A stretch of 64,000 nucleotides of DNA. Source: Alkalispirochaeta americana. GTDB lineage: Bacteria; Spirochaetota; Spirochaetia; DSM-27196; Alkalispirochaetaceae. The notes below the pieces were generated by a model. It saw only the letters and a program-made list of their open reading frames with translations. It was not told where the DNA came from and did no database searches. Below are positions 3,706-10,157 of this stretch, piece after piece. A program made the position numbers and the translations under genes. The DNA lies in the NCBI RefSeq assembly GCF_900156105.1, contig NZ_FTMS01000008.1, positions 98,527-162,526 on the forward strand, in the 5' to 3' direction. Numbering within the stretch: position 1 is the first letter of the stretch; each line of letters begins with the position of its first letter.

Positions 3706-3948
3706 ATGAAGATTCAGATTTTGGGACCAGGATGCGCCAACTGCACAAACCTGGAAAAGAACGCCCGGGCAGCCGCAGAAACACTGGGTATCCAGGCAGA
3801 GTTTGAAAAAATCACCGACATGAACCAGATCATGGACATGGGGGTTCTGCGAACACCCGGCTTTGCTGTGGACGGCACCCTCGTAAAATCGGGCAAGGTC
3901 TTTTCCCCCGAGGAGATCGCCGAAGCCCTGGCCCCCTACGTCAGCTAA
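3706..3948 (+). CDS. Thioredoxin-like CxxC protein (redox-active disulfide protein 2 type)
   Basis: 80 residues, one thioredoxin-fold domain. The motif GCANC near residue 10 sits directly after the first strand (MKIQILGPG), as in the small thioredoxin/glutaredoxin-like proteins of the redox-active disulfide protein 2 family, and the cis-proline loop is visible as RTPGF. Such proteins are often encoded beside ArsP/DUF318-type permeases; here that permease starts 73 bases downstream, so joint work in metal or metalloid export or reduction is likely but unproven. The ATG follows a clear AGGAGG. An AT-rich element ahead of it (about 3655-3685, with TTATATTG and CAATTATA) could hold the promoter and an ArsR-type site. 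Confidence 0.8.
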   Translation: MKIQILGPGCANCTNLEKNARAAAETLGIQAEFEKITDMNQIMDMGVLRTPGFAVDGTLVKSGKVFSPEEIAEALAPYVS

Positions 3949-4021
3949 CCACCTGGTTAACCCTCCGGGCCCCTCCGGGGCGGTGGGCATGACCACCGTC
4001 CCGCCTTAAGAAGGACACCTT

Positions 4022-5221
4022 ATGAACCCGATCGTACGACTCTGGCAGGAACCCAAAAACCGGCTCCTGGCATTAATGGGCGCTGTATTTCTTGCTGCTT
4101 TTTTTATCCCCTGGGAGGCTCCCCGCCTGATGGCGGGGGTGCAGGAATCGTTCCTGCTCCTCAATTATTACGCTCGCGAACACGTTTTGCTGTGCCTGAT
4201 TCCCGCTTTCTTTATTGCCGGCGCGATCACGGTCTTTCTGAACCAGCAGGCCGTTATCCGCTACCTGGGGCCGGATGCTCCAAAGCTCCTGGCCTACAGT
4301 GTGGCCTCCGTCTCGGGGACTATCCTGGCCGTGTGCTCCTGCACCGTATTGCCTCTTTTCAAGGGGATATACAAGAAAGGAGCCGGTCTTGGTCCCGCTG
4401 TGAGCTTTCTCTACAGCGGACCGGCCATCAATATTCTCGCGATCATCCTCACCGCCAAAGTCCTGGGGCTGCAGCTGGGCATTGCCCGGGCTCTGGGAGC
4501 GATCGCCTTCGCCTTTATCATTGGTCTGGCTATGCACCTGATCTTTTTCCGGGAGGACCGGGAGCGAACCACCAACGCCGCGATGTTCCAGGGTGACGAG
4601 AGCCAGGAACGATCGCTACCCCAGATGGGGCTCTATCTTGGGTCCATGATCGGTGTTCTGGTCTTCCTTAACTGGGCCCCTGGCGATGGAACTATCGGCT
4701 GGTGGGAGACGCTGCACCGGTTTCGCCTGGTGATCGCTGGTGGCTTTGGATTGCTTCTTTTGTATACGCTGGTTCGCTGGTTTACCCGGACCGAACTGGG
4801 AAACTGGGTGGCTGCCACCCGGGACTTTGCGGTACAGATACTTCCCCTGCTCTTTGCCGGTGTCATGGTTGCAGGTTTTCTCTTGGGCAGACCCGGTGAA
4901 ATGGCCCTGATTCCCGAGGAGTGGATCGCTCGGGCTGTGGGAACCAACTCCCTGGCAAGCAATCTCTTTGCCTCCCTGGCGGGGGCACTCATGTACTTCG
5001 CAACGCTCACCGAGGTGCCCATTATGCAGGGCCTCCTGGGGGCGGGGATGAACCAGGGACCGGCCCTGGCGCTTCTTCTGGCAGGCCCCTCGCTCTCCCT
5101 GCCGGCTTTGCTGGTGATCGGCGGCGAACTGGGACCGCGCAAGACCCTCACCTACGTGGCCCTGGTGGTGACCCTCTCCACCCTGGCCGGCATGATCTAC
5201 GGAAGTGTGATGGCCCTGTAA
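4022..5221 (+). CDS. arsP: ArsP/DUF318-family permease
   Basis: 399 residues with about eight to ten hydrophobic segments. The family hallmark is in the fourth segment: CSCTVLPLFKGIYKKGAGLG, with its CxC pair, followed by GPAINI; a second repeat has TEVPIMQGLLGAGMNQGPAL. Members export trivalent organoarsenicals (ArsP) or other metals. It follows the thioredoxin-like gene and precedes arsR-arsD-arsA. No ArsB or Acr3 pump is encoded in the window, so this is the only visible membrane partner for the ArsA ATPase, which is an inference. An AAGGACA ribosome site precedes the ATG, and a strong hairpin follows the gene. Confidence 0.82.
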   Translation: MNPIVRLWQEPKNRLLALMGAVFLAAFFIPWEAPRLMAGVQESFLLLNYYAREHVLLCLIPAFFIAGAITVFLNQQAVIRYLGPDAPKLLAYSVASVSGTILAVCSCTVLPLFKGIYKKGAGLGPAVSFLYSGPAINILAIILTAKVLGLQLGIARALGAIAFAFIIGLAMHLIFFREDRERTTNAAMFQGDESQERSLPQMGLYLGSMIGVLVFLNWAPGDGTIGWWETLHRFRLVIAGGFGLLLLYTLVRWFTRTELGNWVAATRDFAVQILPLLFAGVMVAGFLLGRPGEMALIPEEWIARAVGTNSLASNLFASLAGALMYFATLTEVPIMQGLLGAGMNQGPALALLLAGPSLSLPALLVIGGELGPRKTLTYVALVVTLSTLAGMIYGSVMAL

Positions 5222-5348: not shown

Positions 5349-5403
5349 TTGACACGGCCAGCTCTCATGCCTACATTACATGCATGAAAGCGCATTTATG
5401 CAT
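5349..5403 (+). promoter_or_regulatory. arsR promoter with overlapping ArsR operator
   Basis: A TTGACA (5349-5354), 17-base spacer and TACATT (5372-5377) form a good sigma-70-type promoter. Immediately downstream, 5380-5403 is a near-perfect palindrome of two ATGCAT arms around GCGC (10 of 12 base pairs symmetric), which would cover the transcription start near 5384. ArsR-family repressors bind such imperfect palindromes at their own promoters, so autorepression relieved by As(III) is the likely logic. Confidence 0.7.
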
Positions 5404-5442
5404 ACGGTGTACAAACCACCCGCAAAGGAGACGAACCATCCA

Positions 5443-5859
5443 ATGAACACCCTGGGCGGACTTTTCAAAACCCTGGCAGATGAAACCCGGCTGAGGCTGA
5501 TATACCTCTTTCTGCGCAGTAGCGATTCTCTTTGCGTATGCGAACTGGTAGATGCCCTGGGCCTTCCACAGTACCAGGTTTCCCGCCACCTGAGCGCACT
5601 CAAGGCAGCCGGTTTGGTACAGGCCACCAAACAGGGAACCTGGGCGTATCACTACCTTGAAGAAGGCTCGCCCCTGATTCAGGCACTGTGGACATTCCTG
5701 CGGGAAGCGCCCTTGAGCGCCGACTCACAGGAGCAAATTCAGCAGGATTACCAGGCCCTGACACACCGCCTTGCCCTGAGAAGCAACGGATGTTGTGTGG
5801 TGGGCCTCAACCCGAACCCTCTCAAAGACCCGACACCAAAAGGAGATACATTCATATGA
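5443..5859 (+). CDS. arsR: ArsR-family metalloregulator
   Basis: 138 residues, winged helix: LFKTLADETRLRLIYLF, then the recognition segment LPQYQVSRHLSALKAAGLV. The metal-site motif is seen as SLCVCELVDAL, matching the CVCxL arsenite-binding motif of classical ArsR in helix alpha-3. An extra NGCCVV near the C-terminus adds a vicinal Cys pair. It is expected to repress this operon until As(III) or Sb(III) binds. The start at 5443 gives the normal N-terminus; an in-frame ATG at 5380 falls inside the operator and lacks a ribosome site. It overlaps arsD by ATGA (5856-5859), implying translational coupling. Confidence 0.88.
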   Translation: MNTLGGLFKTLADETRLRLIYLFLRSSDSLCVCELVDALGLPQYQVSRHLSALKAAGLVQATKQGTWAYHYLEEGSPLIQALWTFLREAPLSADSQEQIQQDYQALTHRLALRSNGCCVVGLNPNPLKDPTPKGDTFI

Positions 5860-6260
5860 GCGATACCGTAACCATAGAGATCTTTGACCCGCCCATGTGC
5901 TGCCCCGGGGGCTTGTGTGGTCCTGCGATCGATCCGGCACTTCTGGATATGAACGAAACGATTCTGACGCTGAAAAACGACCACGGCATCGTGATTCAGC
6001 GGTACCTGTTGCAGCAACAGGGCCAAAAGTTCATGGAGAACCCGGCCGTTCTGGAGCTCCTTCAGAAGCATAACACCGATATCCTGCCCGTCACCGTTGT
6101 GAACGGCAAGGTAGTCAAGACAAAGGCCTTTCCAACCTGCCATGAGCTGCTTGCCTGGAGCGGAGGAGAAACGCCGGAACCAAAGGGCGCCGGAGCCGTA
6201 GCCGTAGCCGTAGCCGAAACCGATGCCGAAAGCACAACAAGCAAGGATGAATCACTATGA
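5856..6260 (+). CDS. arsD: ArsD arsenite metallochaperone
   Basis: 134 residues, close to the 120-residue ArsD family. The N-terminal strand is followed by DPPMCCPGGLCG, giving the three conserved As(III)-binding cysteines (about Cys15, Cys16, Cys21), then a thioredoxin-like core with the P-V-T-V-V-N-G strand. ArsD hands arsenite to ArsA. The distal vicinal cysteine pairs found in the E. coli plasmid protein are absent; instead there is a low-complexity Ala-Val tail (AVAVAVAET) from a short GCCGTA repeat. Both ends are coupled by ATGA overlaps, to arsR upstream and arsA downstream, so the three genes form a tight translational unit. Confidence 0.88.
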   Translation: MSDTVTIEIFDPPMCCPGGLCGPAIDPALLDMNETILTLKNDHGIVIQRYLLQQQGQKFMENPAVLELLQKHNTDILPVTVVNGKVVKTKAFPTCHELLAWSGGETPEPKGAGAVAVAVAETDAESTTSKDESL

Positions 6261-8248
6261 CGAAAAACGATACACACTATATCTTCTTCTCCGGTAAAGG
6301 CGGCGTGGGAAAGACCACCATGGCCTGTGCCACCGCCGTCCATAATGCCCAGGAAGGCAATCGGACCCTGATCGTAACAACCGATCCCGCGTCAAACCTC
6401 TCGGACGTCTTTGAAACCGAGATCGGTCACAATATCCGCCCCCTGGGAAAATCCCGGGGAATCGACAACCTCTGGGGTATGGAGATCGATCCGGATCGTG
6501 CCACCGAGGAGTACCGTGAACGCATTCTCGCACCAATGCGCGCGGTGATGCCGGAAAACGTGATGAAGGTGATGGAGGAGCAGTTTAACTCCCCCTGCAC
6601 CACGGAGATCGCCTCCTTTGACCGTTTTGTGGACTTCATGTCTGGCGACGACGCATCCCGGGCAGCTCCAGGGGAAGATGGATCCCCTGGCGGCAGCGCT
6701 GGCGCAGCCTGGGACGTAGTAATCTTTGACACCGCTCCTACGGGCCACACCCTGCGTCTCCTGGAGTTGCCCGTGGACTGGAGCAAACATATCGAGGAAA
6801 GCGCCAGGGGGAGCGGGAACACCTGCATCGGCCCGGTGGCCTCAATCCAGGAAAACAAGGCCAAGTACGACGAGGCCACCCGCCTGCTGGGTGACCCCAC
6901 CCGTACAGAGTTCACCTTTGTGTTGCAGCCGGAAGAAACGTCAATTTATGAGACCCGTCGATCCTCCAGCGAGCTTGCTGAAATCGGGGTCGCGAATACC
7001 CGGTTGATCGTCAACGGGATACTCCCGGAGGCTGTCTGCGAGCACCCCTTCTTCCGCAGCCGCTATGAGATGCAGCAACGCCATCTCCAACAGATTCGCA
7101 GCGAGTTTTCCGTCCCTCTGACCTTTATGTATCAGCGCGATGGTGAGATCAAGGGCCTTGCCGGTTTGCGCCACGTGGCCAGAGATCTCTTTGCCGGCCA
7201 GGACCACAGGCCGGACTATCTGCTCCAGGCCGACACTACGGAGAATTCTCCGGAATCCCTCACCGACTCGCCCTCCTACGAGGAGCAGGATTCGCGCTCC
7301 TTGCTGGACACAATCAGCCCGGTCCGGGGAAAAACCAAGGCTCTGTTCTTTACCGGAAAGGGCGGCGTTGGCAAGACAACCGTCTCCTGCGCCACAGCCT
7401 TTGCCTTGGGACGCGCGGGATTCAAGACGTTGCTGCTCACCACAGACCCGGCATCGCACATTGGCCAGGTGCTGGAACAACCAATTGGCGACACGATTAC
7501 TCCGGTGCAGGGAGCGGAAAACCTCGATGCCGTGATGATCGACCAGGAAGCTGCTGTGGCTGAGTACAAGGAGCGGATCCTCGCCGACGCCCGGAGGAAG
7601 TACTCCGAGGATATGCTGATAGCGGTCAAGGAGGAGCTTGAGTCGCCCTGCACCGAAGAGATGGCAGCCTTTGACAAGTTCATGTGGTACGTGGAGCGCG
7701 AGGAATACGACCTGGTAGTCTTCGACACCGCTCCCACGGGACATACCCTGCGATTGCTGGAGTTACCCTTTGACTACGCTGACCAGGTCGGGATGATGGT
7801 CACTACCACAGGAGAAGGGAATACCGCCAAAAGCGAGACCCAGGCCCGATTCGACAGGATCATCGCACAGATGAAGGACCCGGACCGCAGCGCCTTTGGT
7901 TTTGTGGTCTACCCGGAATCAACTCCCGTGATTGAGGCATACCGGGCGATGGTGGATCTGAGGGCTGCCGGGATCGAGACGCAGTTTGTCGTGGCCAACC
8001 AGGTACTTCAGAAGGAATACTGCACCAACGATTTCTTCCGAAAGCGCCGGACGATGCAGGAAAAATACCTGGGCAAGATCAACCAGCGTTTTCAGTTGCC
8101 CGTGACAATTATGCCGCTCTTTGAGACGGAAATCACCGGCCTGGCCATGGTGGAACGCGCCGCCGACTCGCTCCTGGCAGGATCACTCCAGTCCGGCACG
8201 GCAGGGGACGGGACGCGGGTAAAGACAAAAACGGTAGCAGGAGGCTGA
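6257..8248 (+). CDS. arsA: ArsA arsenite-stimulated ATPase, two-domain form
   Basis: 663 residues, somewhat longer than the usual 583. Two homologous halves each carry a deviant P-loop GKGGVGKTT (about 14 and 368) and the signature DTAPTGHTLRLLELP. The three cysteines needed for metalloid activation are present (Cys114 and Cys190 in the first half, Cys465 in the second), so it should be allosterically activated by As(III)/Sb(III). A Gly/Ser-rich insert (about 137-150) and a longer linker explain the extra length. In the known system it energises ArsB, which is not in this window; the ArsP-type permease upstream or a distant pump may serve. It overlaps arsD by 4 bases, and the FmdB gene starts 3 bases after it. 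Confidence 0.93.
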   Translation: MTKNDTHYIFFSGKGGVGKTTMACATAVHNAQEGNRTLIVTTDPASNLSDVFETEIGHNIRPLGKSRGIDNLWGMEIDPDRATEEYRERILAPMRAVMPENVMKVMEEQFNSPCTTEIASFDRFVDFMSGDDASRAAPGEDGSPGGSAGAAWDVVIFDTAPTGHTLRLLELPVDWSKHIEESARGSGNTCIGPVASIQENKAKYDEATRLLGDPTRTEFTFVLQPEETSIYETRRSSSELAEIGVANTRLIVNGILPEAVCEHPFFRSRYEMQQRHLQQIRSEFSVPLTFMYQRDGEIKGLAGLRHVARDLFAGQDHRPDYLLQADTTENSPESLTDSPSYEEQDSRSLLDTISPVRGKTKALFFTGKGGVGKTTVSCATAFALGRAGFKTLLLTTDPASHIGQVLEQPIGDTITPVQGAENLDAVMIDQEAAVAEYKERILADARRKYSEDMLIAVKEELESPCTEEMAAFDKFMWYVEREEYDLVVFDTAPTGHTLRLLELPFDYADQVGMMVTTTGEGNTAKSETQARFDRIIAQMKDPDRSAFGFVVYPESTPVIEAYRAMVDLRAAGIETQFVVANQVLQKEYCTNDFFRKRRTMQEKYLGKINQRFQLPVTIMPLFETEITGLAMVERAADSLLAGSLQSGTAGDGTRVKTKTVAGG

Positions 8249-8251
8249 CCG

Positions 8252-8479
8252 GTGACCTACGAGTACCAATGCGAAAAGTGCGGGAACACCTTCGATGTCA
8301 CCGCCTCCATCGCCGAGAAGGCGGCCGGCCTGGAGCCGGCCTGCCCGGAGTGCGGATCAAAACAGACGTCGCAACTCTTTGGCGGAGTGGGAATACTCTC
8401 GGGCGCAGGCACCTCCAGCCCCGGCGGAAGTTTCGGCGGTGGCCTCTGTGGCCCCGGCAGGGGCTCCGGGTGCTGCTGA
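8252..8479 (+). CDS. FmdB-family zinc ribbon protein with Cys-Cys tail
   Basis: 75 residues with a GTG start four bases after the arsA stop and AGGAGG overlapping the arsA end. The N-terminus has the FmdB-type zinc ribbon, with CEKC near 8-11 and CPEC near 31-34. A Gly/Ser-rich tail of about 25 residues follows, ending in GLCGPGRGSGCC. The family is thought to be regulatory or metal-binding. The tail ends exactly on Cys-Cys, as does the tail of the YlbF-like protein at 8861-9244, which suggests a metalloid-binding adaptation. Its place inside the ars operon supports that, but no direct function is known. Confidence 0.8.
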   Translation: MTYEYQCEKCGNTFDVTASIAEKAAGLEPACPECGSKQTSQLFGGVGILSGAGTSSPGGSFGGGLCGPGRGSGCC

Positions 8480-8496
8480 ATCAAGGGAGCACAGCG

Positions 8497-8790
8497 ATGA
8501 ATGCTGAACAGGTGGTGCGGATCTTTGTGCCACCTACCGGCGAGTGCGCCGGAGACAACACCTGGGAGAAGGCAGCCCGGGGGATCGAGGAACGGCTACG
8601 AAGACGAACCGGCATCAAGGTCCGATTCGAAACGATCTACCTCTTTAGCCCGGAATTCTTTGCCCACCCCGAGGTGGCCCAACTGATTCAATCAGGACAG
8701 AAGCCACCGATCATCATGGTCAATAACCGGATAATTCAGGCCGGCGGAAAGCTCCGGGAACGAACCATACGGGAAGCACTGGAAGGCTGA
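8497..8790 (+). CDS. Small unknown protein of the ars operon
   Basis: 97 residues, not recognised with confidence. It starts RIFVPPTGECAGDNTWEKAA, then a charged helix, a hydrophobic strand near TIYLFSPEFF, and PPIIMVNNRIIQAGGKLRERTIREAL. The strand-helix-strand order and the 'PPIIMVNNRIIQAGGK' segment, which resembles a cis-proline loop followed by a turn, suggest a thioredoxin-like fold. Only one cysteine (Cys17) is present, so it is not a classical CxxC redox protein. It lies 17 bases after the FmdB gene and 70 bases before the first YlbF-like gene, within what looks like one transcript. Confidence 0.65.
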   Translation: MNAEQVVRIFVPPTGECAGDNTWEKAARGIEERLRRRTGIKVRFETIYLFSPEFFAHPEVAQLIQSGQKPPIIMVNNRIIQAGGKLRERTIREALEG

Positions 8791-8860
8791 AATGCACGAT
8801 CCCGGCAATAACGGATACGGATACGGCCGGATACGGACCAAAAACAACCAGGAGCACGAG

Positions 8861-9244
8861 ATGACGACAGACACGACAATAAATCAGGATATAGCAACAG
8901 CAGCGCAGGCCTTTGCCGCCGGATTGTCGGAAACACCGGAATACAGGGAATACGAAGCGGCCTCCGAGGCGTATCAGCAGGATGCGGAAGCCCGGGATCT
9001 ATTGCGAACATTTCAAATGGCGCAAGAGCAGACTCAACGCACGACCGCCTGGGGCGGAACCGCCGACGATGCCCAAACCCTGGAAGATCTCCGGAGCCAG
9101 GTAACCTCCAACGCGGTACTCTCGCGTTTTTTCGCCTCCCAGGAGAATCTGGTGCACCTCCTGAAGGAAACCAATACATATATGACAGAACGATTGGGCT
9201 TTGATTTTGCAACCCTCACCAAACCTGCCGGCGGATGTTGCTGA
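8861..9244 (+). CDS. YlbF/YmcA-family protein 1, Cys-Cys C-terminus
   Basis: 127 residues, mostly helical and Gln/Glu-rich, matching the YlbF/YmcA (com_ylbF) family: helix AAQAFAAGLSETPEYREYEAA, then DAEARDLLRTFQMAQEQ and SNAVLSRFFASQENLVHLL. In Bacillus, YlbF, YmcA and YaaT form a complex that carries Fe-S clusters and affects RNase Y and phosphorelay activity. Here the protein ends TKPAGGCC, a terminal vicinal cysteine pair. The start at 8861 follows GGAGCACGAG; an earlier in-frame ATG (8792) lacks such a site and would add a low-complexity leader made from a GGATAC repeat. A second family member follows 42 bases downstream. Why the family sits in an ars operon is unknown. Confidence 0.75.
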   Translation: MTTDTTINQDIATAAQAFAAGLSETPEYREYEAASEAYQQDAEARDLLRTFQMAQEQTQRTTAWGGTADDAQTLEDLRSQVTSNAVLSRFFASQENLVHLLKETNTYMTERLGFDFATLTKPAGGCC

Positions 9245-9286
9245 CCCTCAGGTCCAGCACTGCCACACCAACGAAAGGACCCTGCC

Positions 9287-9652
9287 ATGACCAACGCACT
9301 AAAGCAAGCTACCGACACGTTCATCGCGGCGCTTGAAAAGGCTCCACCGGTACATACCTTCCAGGAAGCCAACCGCCTCTTTGAAAGCAGCGAGGAACTT
9401 CAGGGTTTGCGCGAACAGTACAGCGCCCTGGCGCACGAACTTCAGCAGAAACAGATGGAGGGCACTCTGACACAGGAGAACATCACCGAACTGCGCGCGA
9501 TCCAGAACCAGGTAAACACCCACAAGATCACCGCAAACCTGCTGAGCACCCGGAACGAAGCTGTGACAACACTGGGTCTGGCAAACCGGACGATCAGCGA
9601 GATCGTAGGGTTTGATTATGCCGCCACTGCAGCACCGGCAAGGACGTGCTGA
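9287..9652 (+). CDS. YlbF/YmcA-family protein 2
   Basis: 121 residues, paralogous in pattern to the gene before it: HTFQEANRLFESSEELQGLREQYSAL, then a long helix with ELRAIQNQVNTHKITANLLSTRNEAV and TISEIVGFDYAA, the counterpart of MTERLGFDFATL in the first copy. It ends AAPARTC with one terminal cysteine rather than two. Two different YlbF-family subunits side by side suggests a hetero-oligomer, as with YlbF-YmcA in Bacillus. A ribosome site GAAAGGA precedes the ATG. It is the last plus-strand gene of the ars operon; a large stem structure lies between it and the convergent arsC. Confidence 0.75.
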   Translation: MTNALKQATDTFIAALEKAPPVHTFQEANRLFESSEELQGLREQYSALAHELQQKQMEGTLTQENITELRAIQNQVNTHKITANLLSTRNEAVTTLGLANRTISEIVGFDYAATAAPARTC

Positions 9653-9716
9653 GAGGCTGCGAGGAAAGCGGATTCTGCCGGGCAACCGGCGGGATCGCCG
9701 CCCGCCAGGCAGCCTC
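9653..9716. terminator. Nested stem structure between convergent ars genes
   Basis: An outer 8-bp stem (GAGGCTGC at 9653-9660 with GCAGCCTC at 9709-9716) encloses a GC-rich hairpin (GGCGGG at 9688-9693 with CCCGCC at 9701-9706). It fills the gap between the ends of the second YlbF gene and arsC and could act in both directions. No T-run is present on either strand. Confidence 0.45.
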
Positions 9717-9722
9717 CCCGCC

Positions 9723-10157
9723 TCAACCCAGGACCCGTTCCACGAAGTCCTTGCTCTTCGCCCGAATCTGGTCCCGGATCGGCCGCACGAAGGCAAGCTT
9801 CTCTTCCATGGTTCCGGTCGCCTTCGACGGATCCGGAAAGGGCCAGTGGAGCCGCTCCTTTTCAGCCGGAAAGATCGGACAACGCTCAGCCGCTTCCTTG
9901 TCGCACACGGCTATCACATAGTCAAAACGCTCCCCGGCTGTATGCAGATCGAAGACGCTGCGGGTACTCTTGCCGGTTATATCGATCCCGTCTTCTTTCA
10001 GCAGCTCCACCACCACCGGGTTCAGCGTCCCCGGTTCGATTCCGGCACTCACGACCTCAAGAGAATCTCCGGCGGCTTGACGGATGAACTCTTCTGTCAT
10101 TTGGCTTCGGGCGCTGTTATGTATGCAGATCGCCAACACTCGTGGTTTTAAACTCAT
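9723..10157 (-). CDS. arsC: Arsenate reductase, thioredoxin-coupled (low-MW phosphatase fold)
   Basis: 144 residues, full length for the family typified by S. aureus pI258 ArsC. The phosphate-binding loop is CIHNSARS with nucleophile Cys11 and Arg17, and the two shuttle cysteines are Cys85 and Cys93 (AVCDKEAAERC). The catalytic Asp is in WPFPDPS. It reduces As(V) to As(III) using thioredoxin, feeding the ArsD-ArsA export route encoded convergently. An AAGGAC ribosome site precedes the ATG. A TATAAC box about 80 bases upstream on the same strand may be part of its own promoter; no copy of the ATGCAT operator is seen there. Confidence 0.93.
   Translation of the reverse strand: MSLKPRVLAICIHNSARSQMTEEFIRQAAGDSLEVVSAGIEPGTLNPVVVELLKEDGIDITGKSTRSVFDLHTAGERFDYVIAVCDKEAAERCPIFPAEKERLHWPFPDPSKATGTMEEKLAFVRPIRDQIRAKSKDFVERVLG

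Follow-up and report, generated by a model that had tools for sequence, protein, structure and literature searches.

An arsenic-resistance (ars) operon of Alkalispirochaeta americana raises the question of why arsA should be followed by genes for an FmdB-type zinc ribbon, a protein of 97 amino acids, and two YlbF-family proteins, and why the zinc ribbon and both YlbF proteins should end in cysteine. The operon lies in a 64,000-nucleotide stretch of contig NZ_FTMS01000008.1 (assembly GCF_900156105.1, positions 98,527 to 162,526, forward strand), which we refer to as the window. ArsD and ArsA constitute a textbook metalloid pump, and As(III) prefers two or three thiolates as ligands. ArsD has been reported to deliver As(III) to the ArsA pump (PMC2440759). 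Here we describe an accessory gene set of the ArsDA pump that is real and conserved and that accompanies arsA in a number of phyla, and we argue from sequence comparisons that a hand-off of As(III) to ArsD and ArsA appears to be the likeliest role of its cysteine tails.

An ars operon that continues past arsA

The genes follow one another in the order arsR-arsD-arsA-fmdB-(97-amino acid gene)-ylbF1-ylbF2 between positions 5443 and 9652 of the window (Table 1). As a preliminary description of this DNA had proposed, arsR, arsD, and arsA are chained by ATGA overlaps, one common to arsR and arsD at 5856-5859 and one common to arsD and arsA at 6257-6260, and the operon extends past arsA without a promoter-sized gap, with 3, 17, 70, and 42 nucleotides preceding fmdB, the 97-amino acid gene, ylbF1, and ylbF2, respectively. 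ArsR, ArsD, and ArsA all pass their family cut-offs within one overlapping chain, as expected for an ArsRDA operon. A promoter scan gave a single match from arsR through ylbF2, a weak one within arsA (9/12 positions). Since the scan of the whole region returned 3 sites where 2.5 are expected by chance, it is as a whole no better than chance, and we therefore infer co-transcription from the spacing of the genes.

Recurrence of the extra genes with arsA

We surveyed gene neighborhoods using ArsA as bait, blind to the protein tails, by taking the best 80 of 321 confirmed loci and counting extra genes within 7 kb of arsA. The resulting rates therefore describe close relatives of this ArsA, and absences are weak where contigs end a few kb from arsA, as several do. 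YlbF is found in 25 of the 80 loci, FmdB in 28, and a 97-amino acid-type protein in 32; YlbF and FmdB occur together in 17, and in 43 loci one or more of the four extra genes is present. The 25 loci with YlbF comprise 15 from Chloroflexota, 4 from Spirochaetota, 4 from Ignavibacteria, 1 from a deltaproteobacterium, and 1 from UASB270. No YlbF was found in survey loci titled Nitrospirae or Clostridium, and three Nitrospirae ArsA loci carry an FmdB ending in GGCC. The extension of the operon reappears beside arsA in several phyla, and short gaps 3' of arsA are found in many bacterial loci. Elsewhere the order is rearranged, with FmdB 5' of arsD (L208, L210, and L211), all genes from FmdB to YlbF2 5' of arsD (L214), or a divergent unit (L201 and L202). 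Thus, the linkage does not reflect one frozen cluster. In an Alicyclobacillus plasmid (L064:5783-6136), a 117-amino acid protein, DsrE-like by eye, stands 3' of two split ArsA genes in the place of YlbF.

Within the taxonomic order to which A. americana belongs, ArsA of this type is present in 11 of 46 genomes, including that of the window; in one of these (G418) ArsA is cut by the contig start, and in another (G402) the match spans one stop. Among the other ten, FmdB lies on the same contig in six, always ending in GCC, and a 97-amino acid-type protein is found in eight. YlbF1 ends in GGCC in all three genomes in which it is complete, and a fourth copy is cut by a contig end.

Given that these rearranged linkages extend across phyla, it is very improbable that the genes merely reside in a mobile resistance island with no role in arsenic metabolism. 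The YlbF and FmdB families are also found unlinked to arsA, as such a view would predict, but 24 haloarchaeal plasmid records and the retention of the tails while the rest of the protein diverged both speak against it.

Conserved cysteine tails on two unrelated folds

The preliminary description gave the ends of FmdB, YlbF1, and YlbF2 as SGCC, GGCC, and RTC, and it named an absence of cysteine tails from most linked YlbF and FmdB proteins as the result that would count against it. Our counts did not bear out such an absence. We observed that ArsA-linked YlbF1, the first member of the YlbF pair, ends in CC or CCG in 23 of 23 complete proteins; of the 25 loci, L197 is cut by a contig end and L274 holds only a fragment. 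In all 22 YlbF2 proteins a cysteine lies among the last three residues, and 11 of them have vicinal CC (L197, L201, and L265 run off the contig, and the L274 fragment, which lacks its start, is included). First and second partners were assigned by gene order, and in Chloroflexota both often match the same model. ArsA-linked FmdB has CC within its last four residues in 26 of 28 loci, the exceptions being L216 (ACSCS) and L243 (KPGSC); L218 and L219 carry an identical FmdB. By comparison, 18 of 2958 other open reading frames (ORFs) of at least 60 amino acids in the 80 loci end in CC or CCx, a background in which many ORFs do not correspond to genes and related rows cannot be treated as independent.

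The alignments place the conservation at the same residues. In both YlbF1 alignments, one of 28 bacterial and haloarchaeal rows with a mean identity of 38% and one of 22 rows (the window and 21 of the 23 complete first partners), no column other than those of the two terminal cysteines is invariant. Likewise, the terminal cysteine is the only invariant column among 19 second partners (the window, 16 ars-linked proteins, and 2 others). Control proteins do not share these residues: none of 27 housekeeping FmdB proteins of the order (read from the 30 best-scoring loci) has a cysteine in its last 14 residues, and none of 23 YlbF proteins from elsewhere in Spirochaetota (read from 26 loci) has one in its last six. 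The YlbF subfamily of other Spirochaetota (L011-L029) ends in a KIITG/KIITDF-like motif that lacks cysteine. Short FmdB proteins with cysteine-rich ends were also seen outside confirmed ars loci (L191-L194, L196, L176, and L177); the loci L191-L196 are only 1.4-2.5 kb long, and L195 gave no readable FmdB.

In the structural model of YlbF1, residues 125-127 have a predicted local distance difference test (pLDDT) score below 50, so the last residues are probably disordered and form a flexible tail. Two unrelated folds, the zinc ribbon and the YlbF helical fold, thus carry terminal cysteines in ars loci. The preliminary description had proposed a wider convergence of unrelated proteins on terminal thiols; it applies to these two folds and does not extend to ArsR or to the 97-amino acid protein, which has no cysteine tail.

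Haloarchaeal relatives

Among the 60 ArsA matches listed of 2134, 24 are haloarchaeal records (H3-H26), and comparison of accessions by eye indicates that these are the same 24 records that hold HcsL; 10 of them are from Halobacterium, mostly near copies. In the seven loci that we read, arsD, arsA, hcsL, and hcsS form a tight plasmid-borne chain in which HcsL and HcsS both end in CC (7/7). NCBIfam lists these as "halo-CC-star" proteins (HcsL, NF041416; HcsS, NF041415), a name with no function shown. HcsL passes the Com_YlbF model (53.8 bits against a cut-off of 23.9) and sits on the first-partner side of the YlbF tree, and the C-terminal half of HcsS matches YlbF2 (hhalign, 96.2%). NF041416 is the best NCBIfam match of the window YlbF1 at 72 bits, and four relatives score 58.6-75.7 bits; given its cut-off of 140, YlbF1 is not an HcsL by that model. 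YlbF1 shares features of the HcsL locus in its terminal GGCC and in its position as the third gene 3' of arsA, behind fmdB and the 97-amino acid gene. For the window ArsA, too, the closest NCBIfam model is haloarchaeal (NF041417, 666.1 bits, under the cut-off of 800).

According to a review, knockout work showed that the arsADRC cluster on pNRC100 of NRC-1 confers As(III) and Sb(III) resistance, and the cluster is described there as arsenite-inducible, with its membrane carrier unknown (PMC3600143). The hcsL and hcsS genes lie directly 3' of arsA on pNRC100 and may or may not have been included in the reported deletion; neither is named in the available part of that account of arsADRC.

Among the articles listed from the open-licence PMC literature, we found nothing on HcsL or HcsS, and the term "halo-CC-star" is absent. 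One article names both YlbF and arsenite but, in its accessible portion, does not join them (PMC6016940), and articles on FmdB and arsenite concern molybdoenzymes and selenium, going by their titles and abstracts. As far as these searches reach, there is no published description of this accessory set of the ArsDA pump, although its haloarchaeal part has been named. The preliminary claim that YlbF-family proteins have no described role in arsenic resistance is therefore borne out by this literature, but it overlooked that NCBIfam already names these arsA neighbors as HcsL and HcsS. A protein search with YlbF1 returned five proteins, including the window's own, and no match was found in viral contigs.

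YlbF pairs away from arsA and an iron-sulfur alternative

We read 15 YlbF pairs of the order that lie away from arsA. This count leaves out L162, two loci that hold just a second partner (L169 and L175), and the weak matches of G359 and G407. The first partners have CxC tails in ten pairs, end in CC in three, one of which (L037) adjoins an ArsR, and have CC further in in two. The excluded L162 holds a YlbF pair ending in GGCC and AAC beside a 97-amino acid-type gene, on a 4.9-kb contig that lacks arsA. Judged by these sequences, the tail cysteines belong to the paired YlbF subfamily and strict vicinal CC goes with arsA. The preliminary description had called for a comparison of terminal CC in linked and unlinked YlbF proteins, and the two groups differ in the vicinal pair and not in tail cysteines as such, which in pairs away from arsA are mostly CxC. 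Neighbors of these pairs include a 2-oxoacid dehydrogenase E2 subunit (L173), a malic enzyme (L164), and an ArsR with a small thioredoxin (L167).

A YlbF tree was built with the last 12 residues of each row cut off; it has few columns, and its bootstrap had not settled. In this tree, the second partners form one clade (98/92), that of UASB270 excepted, which suggests that the pairing of the two paralogues is old and that they travel together. Pairs linked to ars genes and other pairs are interleaved, indicating that YlbF pairs have moved between contexts. The window pair groups with an Nfn-linked pair of its genus.

The chief rival to a role in As(III) hand-off is that the YlbF pair acts like RicA and RicF, using its tail cysteines to hold, sense, or rebuild an iron-sulfur (Fe-S) cluster together with RicT or an ATPase carrier; in ars operons, such a module would protect or repair Fe-S proteins or tune RNA decay under arsenite. 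It takes this place because the tails of RicA and RicF are reported to ligate a [4Fe-4S] cluster jointly with RicT (PMC6751060) and because the genome encodes a PSP1/RicT protein with CX4CC twice (L190, 990-1967). Some pairs away from arsA also adjoin Fe-S genes: a CxC-tailed pair lies beside an ApbC/Mrp-type Fe-S carrier ATPase (L172:8145-10200; L170 likewise by reading), and a second pair of the window's own genome (L005:8941-9735, G000:C4), ending in GGCC and SCCG, lies directly 5' of Nfn-type flavoprotein subunits, an arrangement shared by a further genome of the genus (L038). The CxC tails of the ten first partners noted above point in the same direction. Set against this, the ArsA-linked first partners all have vicinal CC. 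RicAF that lacks RicT is reported to take up little iron, and the same authors knew of no documented case in which adjacent cysteines ligate one and the same cluster (PMC6751060). In addition, PSP1 gave no match in six genomes of the order that keep the YlbF pair (G376 and G408-G412, 64-96% complete) or in Haloferax volcanii, the sole haloarchaeon among the controls, and the idea that the pair always acts via RicT is not borne out in genomes that lack a PSP1 match. We consider the Fe-S explanation unlikely overall, although the Fe-S protection or RNA processing suggested in the preliminary description may yet be part of what these proteins do. The ApbC/Mrp-type carrier is a P-loop relative of ArsA; a cysteine-tailed YlbF pair thus stands beside such an ATPase in both contexts.

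A proposed hand-off of arsenite to ArsD and ArsA

We propose that the tail cysteines of YlbF1, YlbF2, and FmdB capture As(III) and pass it via ArsD and the ArsD-like 97-amino acid protein to ArsA for export, a reading to which we assign a probability of about one half. In this proposal, YlbF1 and YlbF2 would dimerize with each other in the manner of RicA and RicF, and their tails (CC plus C or CC) would supply two or three thiolates for As(III). The CC tails would catch As(III) on flexible ends and exchange it with the ArsD cysteines by thiol exchange, and ArsA would drive its export through the ArsP_1 permease. The first CC pair of ArsD does the As(III) delivery. The tails may also stand in for glutathione: neither Pfam family of glutamate-cysteine ligase is matched in the genome, and BshA gives only matches far under its cut-off. 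The proposal fits this absence of glutamate-cysteine ligase families, the extra ArsD-like protein, and the location of these genes beside arsD and arsA. More tentatively, this would be a widespread arsenite relay, present in haloarchaea as well as in four or more bacterial phyla, in which unrelated folds (a YlbF-family heterodimer and a zinc ribbon) independently gained C-terminal CC; the CC would collect As(III), assemble it on the paired tails, and feed ArsD and ArsA in cells that lack glutathione.

Several observations weigh against this proposal. All 15 pairs away from arsA have tail cysteines, so the tail by itself is not an arsenic signature and cannot be taken as exclusive to ars loci. 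In G402 and G404, arsA adjoins a CC-tailed FmdB but the YlbF pair lies elsewhere and is CxC-tailed. None of the four extra genes was found in 37 of the 80 ArsA loci, indicating that ArsA can do without them, and an incomplete gene table shows neither FmdB nor a 97-amino acid-type gene next to arsA in the seven haloarchaeal loci. The window YlbF2 has a single terminal cysteine only, and short FmdB proteins with cysteine-rich ends occur in other genomes with no arsenic link shown. The tails of RicA and RicF are reported to exit opposite faces of the dimer (PMC6751060), an arrangement that argues against a site shared by both tails of one heterodimer. The ArsP_1 permease is a candidate carrier by elimination, and we found no binding or resistance experiment on these tail proteins.

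Two further explanations keep the tails but remove the hand-off. The tails could act as swinging arms with a redox-active vicinal disulfide, passing electrons to, for example, ArsC or the small thioredoxin and binding no arsenic. GCCG and SCCG tails do occur and look like the redox motif found at the C terminus of some thioredoxin reductases, and the operon has a thioredoxin-type ArsC and a small thioredoxin as neighbors. We find this improbable, because YlbF2 lacks vicinal CC in 11 of 22 cases, where no vicinal disulfide is possible, and because the tails are retained in haloarchaeal loci L060, L061, and L063, where no low-molecular-weight (LMW) phosphatase is annotated within ~4 kb (the gene table being incomplete). 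Alternatively, the proteins could be thiol sponges that are abundant in the cytosol and buffer As(III), Sb(III), or other soft metals there, making no direct contact with ArsD or ArsA. A low-confidence and probably flexible tail, the same tail on unrelated carriers, and linkage in varied gene orders would suit such a buffer. It is nevertheless quite improbable, since a protein with one or two tail cysteines can store little, and since the tight haloarchaeal arsD-arsA-hcsL chain (seven loci) and the short gaps 3' of arsA in bacteria suggest work with ArsA.

If the tails do carry As(III), they would show how glutathione-free anaerobes, and haloarchaea, load the pump. The YlbF family would then gain a metalloid-chaperone function beyond RNA processing, the haloarchaeal CC-star proteins would be explained, and terminal CC would become a marker for metalloid-handling proteins.

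The 97-amino acid protein, ArsD, and ArsR

The 97-amino acid protein matches no Pfam or NCBIfam model, has neither an ArsD family score nor the MCC....C motif, and gave no notable match when its alignment was searched against PDB sequences. Its likeness to ArsD is suggested by its predicted fold. Among 28 proteins of this type, all have a cysteine near strand 1 and 16 have a second cysteine later. In comparison, the [ML]CC....C motif is present in 76 of 79 ArsD proteins. We considered whether the second CC pair of ArsD had shifted onto the tail proteins; CC after residue 80 occurs in only 1 of 79 ArsD proteins, with or without YlbF, so there is no trade-off and this idea was rejected.

The preliminary description had also counted an added NGCC of ArsR among the cysteine tails, which does not hold. 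NGCC is internal, and only its second cysteine aligns with the single CVVG-type cysteine of close relatives; vicinal CC occurs in the last 30 residues of 6 of 57 ArsR proteins. ArsR was therefore removed from the tail pattern. It contains CVCEL, which we take to be an As(III)-type motif.

Neighboring genes

A small thioredoxin and an ArsP_1 permease are encoded in succession at 3706-5221 on the plus strand, upstream of the arsR unit, and the small thioredoxin in this upstream unit is a probable partner of the ars operon. Profile searches of the genome (95.6% complete) gave no match for ACR3 or ArsB, so an ArsAB pump was not recognized and ArsP_1 is, by elimination, the sole candidate ars membrane carrier. 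Known ArsP is reported to carry organoarsenicals (PMC4435449). The nearest models to the window permease are those of SaoE and SO_0444 efflux, with scores far under their cut-offs, and a relative of this permease lies directly 3' of the YlbF pair in L208. The arsC gene was rejected as an operon member because it lies on the opposite strand, convergent with ylbF2.

Table 1. Features of the ars region, in window coordinates.
Feature	Position	Strand	Evidence
ArsE/MTH895-type small thioredoxin	3706..3948	+	Thioredoxin_3, 87.1 bits; TIGR00412, 90.9 bits (passes cut-off of 62)
ArsP_1 permease with CSC motif	4022..5221	+	PF03773, 250.5 bits
Promoter-like site TTGACA-17-TACATT, 5' of arsR	5349..5377	+	10/12 matches; weak evidence
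24-bp imperfect palindrome, candidate ArsR operator	5380..5403	.	12-nt arms, 83% complementary; putative function
arsR	5443..5859	+	HTH_5; ORF open from 5380; start picked by GGAG-ATG spacing
arsD, metallochaperone with MCCPGGLC	5856..6260	+	NF033727, 106.8 bits (passes cut-off of 90); ArsD Pfam family
arsA, two fused ATPase halves	6257..8248	+	ArsA_ATPase, 487.1 bits in two stretches
fmdB, zinc ribbon ending GSGCC (terminal CC codons 8471-8476)	8252..8479	+	Zn_ribbon_8/FmdB; TIGR02605, 48.4 bits (passes cut-off of 31.3)
97-amino acid protein, one Cys after strand 1, predicted ArsD-like thioredoxin fold	8497..8790	+	
ylbF1, ending GGCC (Cys codons 9236-9241)	8861..9244	+	PF06133 (Com_YlbF), 63.4 bits (passes cut-off of 23.9); RicF-like predicted fold
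ylbF2, ending RTC (Cys codon 9647-9649)	9287..9652	+	PF06133, 46.6 bits (passes cut-off of 23.9); second-partner clade in tree
arsC, LMW-phosphatase type, convergent	9723..10157	-	LMWPc, 58.8 bits (over cut-off); TIGR02691, 114.6 bits (under cut-off of 174.3)

Comparison with known systems

The window operon resembles the R773-type ArsRDA(B)C pump in its ArsR, its ArsD with MCC....C, and its fused ArsA, and it differs in its four extra genes, in a genome where neither ArsB nor ACR3 is matched, and in an ArsP_1-type permease. The 97-amino acid type is unlike ArsD and the SA0789/DUF1462-like thioredoxin-fold proteins in that it lacks MCC....C and reaches no family cut-off. The zinc ribbon belongs with the FmdB family TIGR02605 by score, but ars-linked FmdB proteins are short and end in CC, unlike housekeeping ones, which have no terminal cysteine. 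The YlbF pair resembles HcsL and HcsS, which are likewise paired, CC-ended, and 3' of arsA, HcsL being a Com_YlbF protein; HcsS has ~60 amino acids, whereas the bacterial second partner is full-length. Finally, the pair differs from RicA and RicF (YmcA and YlbF) of the Bacillus RicAFT complex in the vicinal CC of its ArsA-linked tails, in its arsenic-export gene context, and in its persistence where PSP1/RicT has no match, but it belongs to the same Pfam family, consists of paired paralogues, and has C-terminal cysteines, and the predicted fold of YlbF1 superposes on 6prk_A (RicF by sequence) with template modeling (TM) scores of 0.74/0.81 and a root-mean-square deviation of 1.9.

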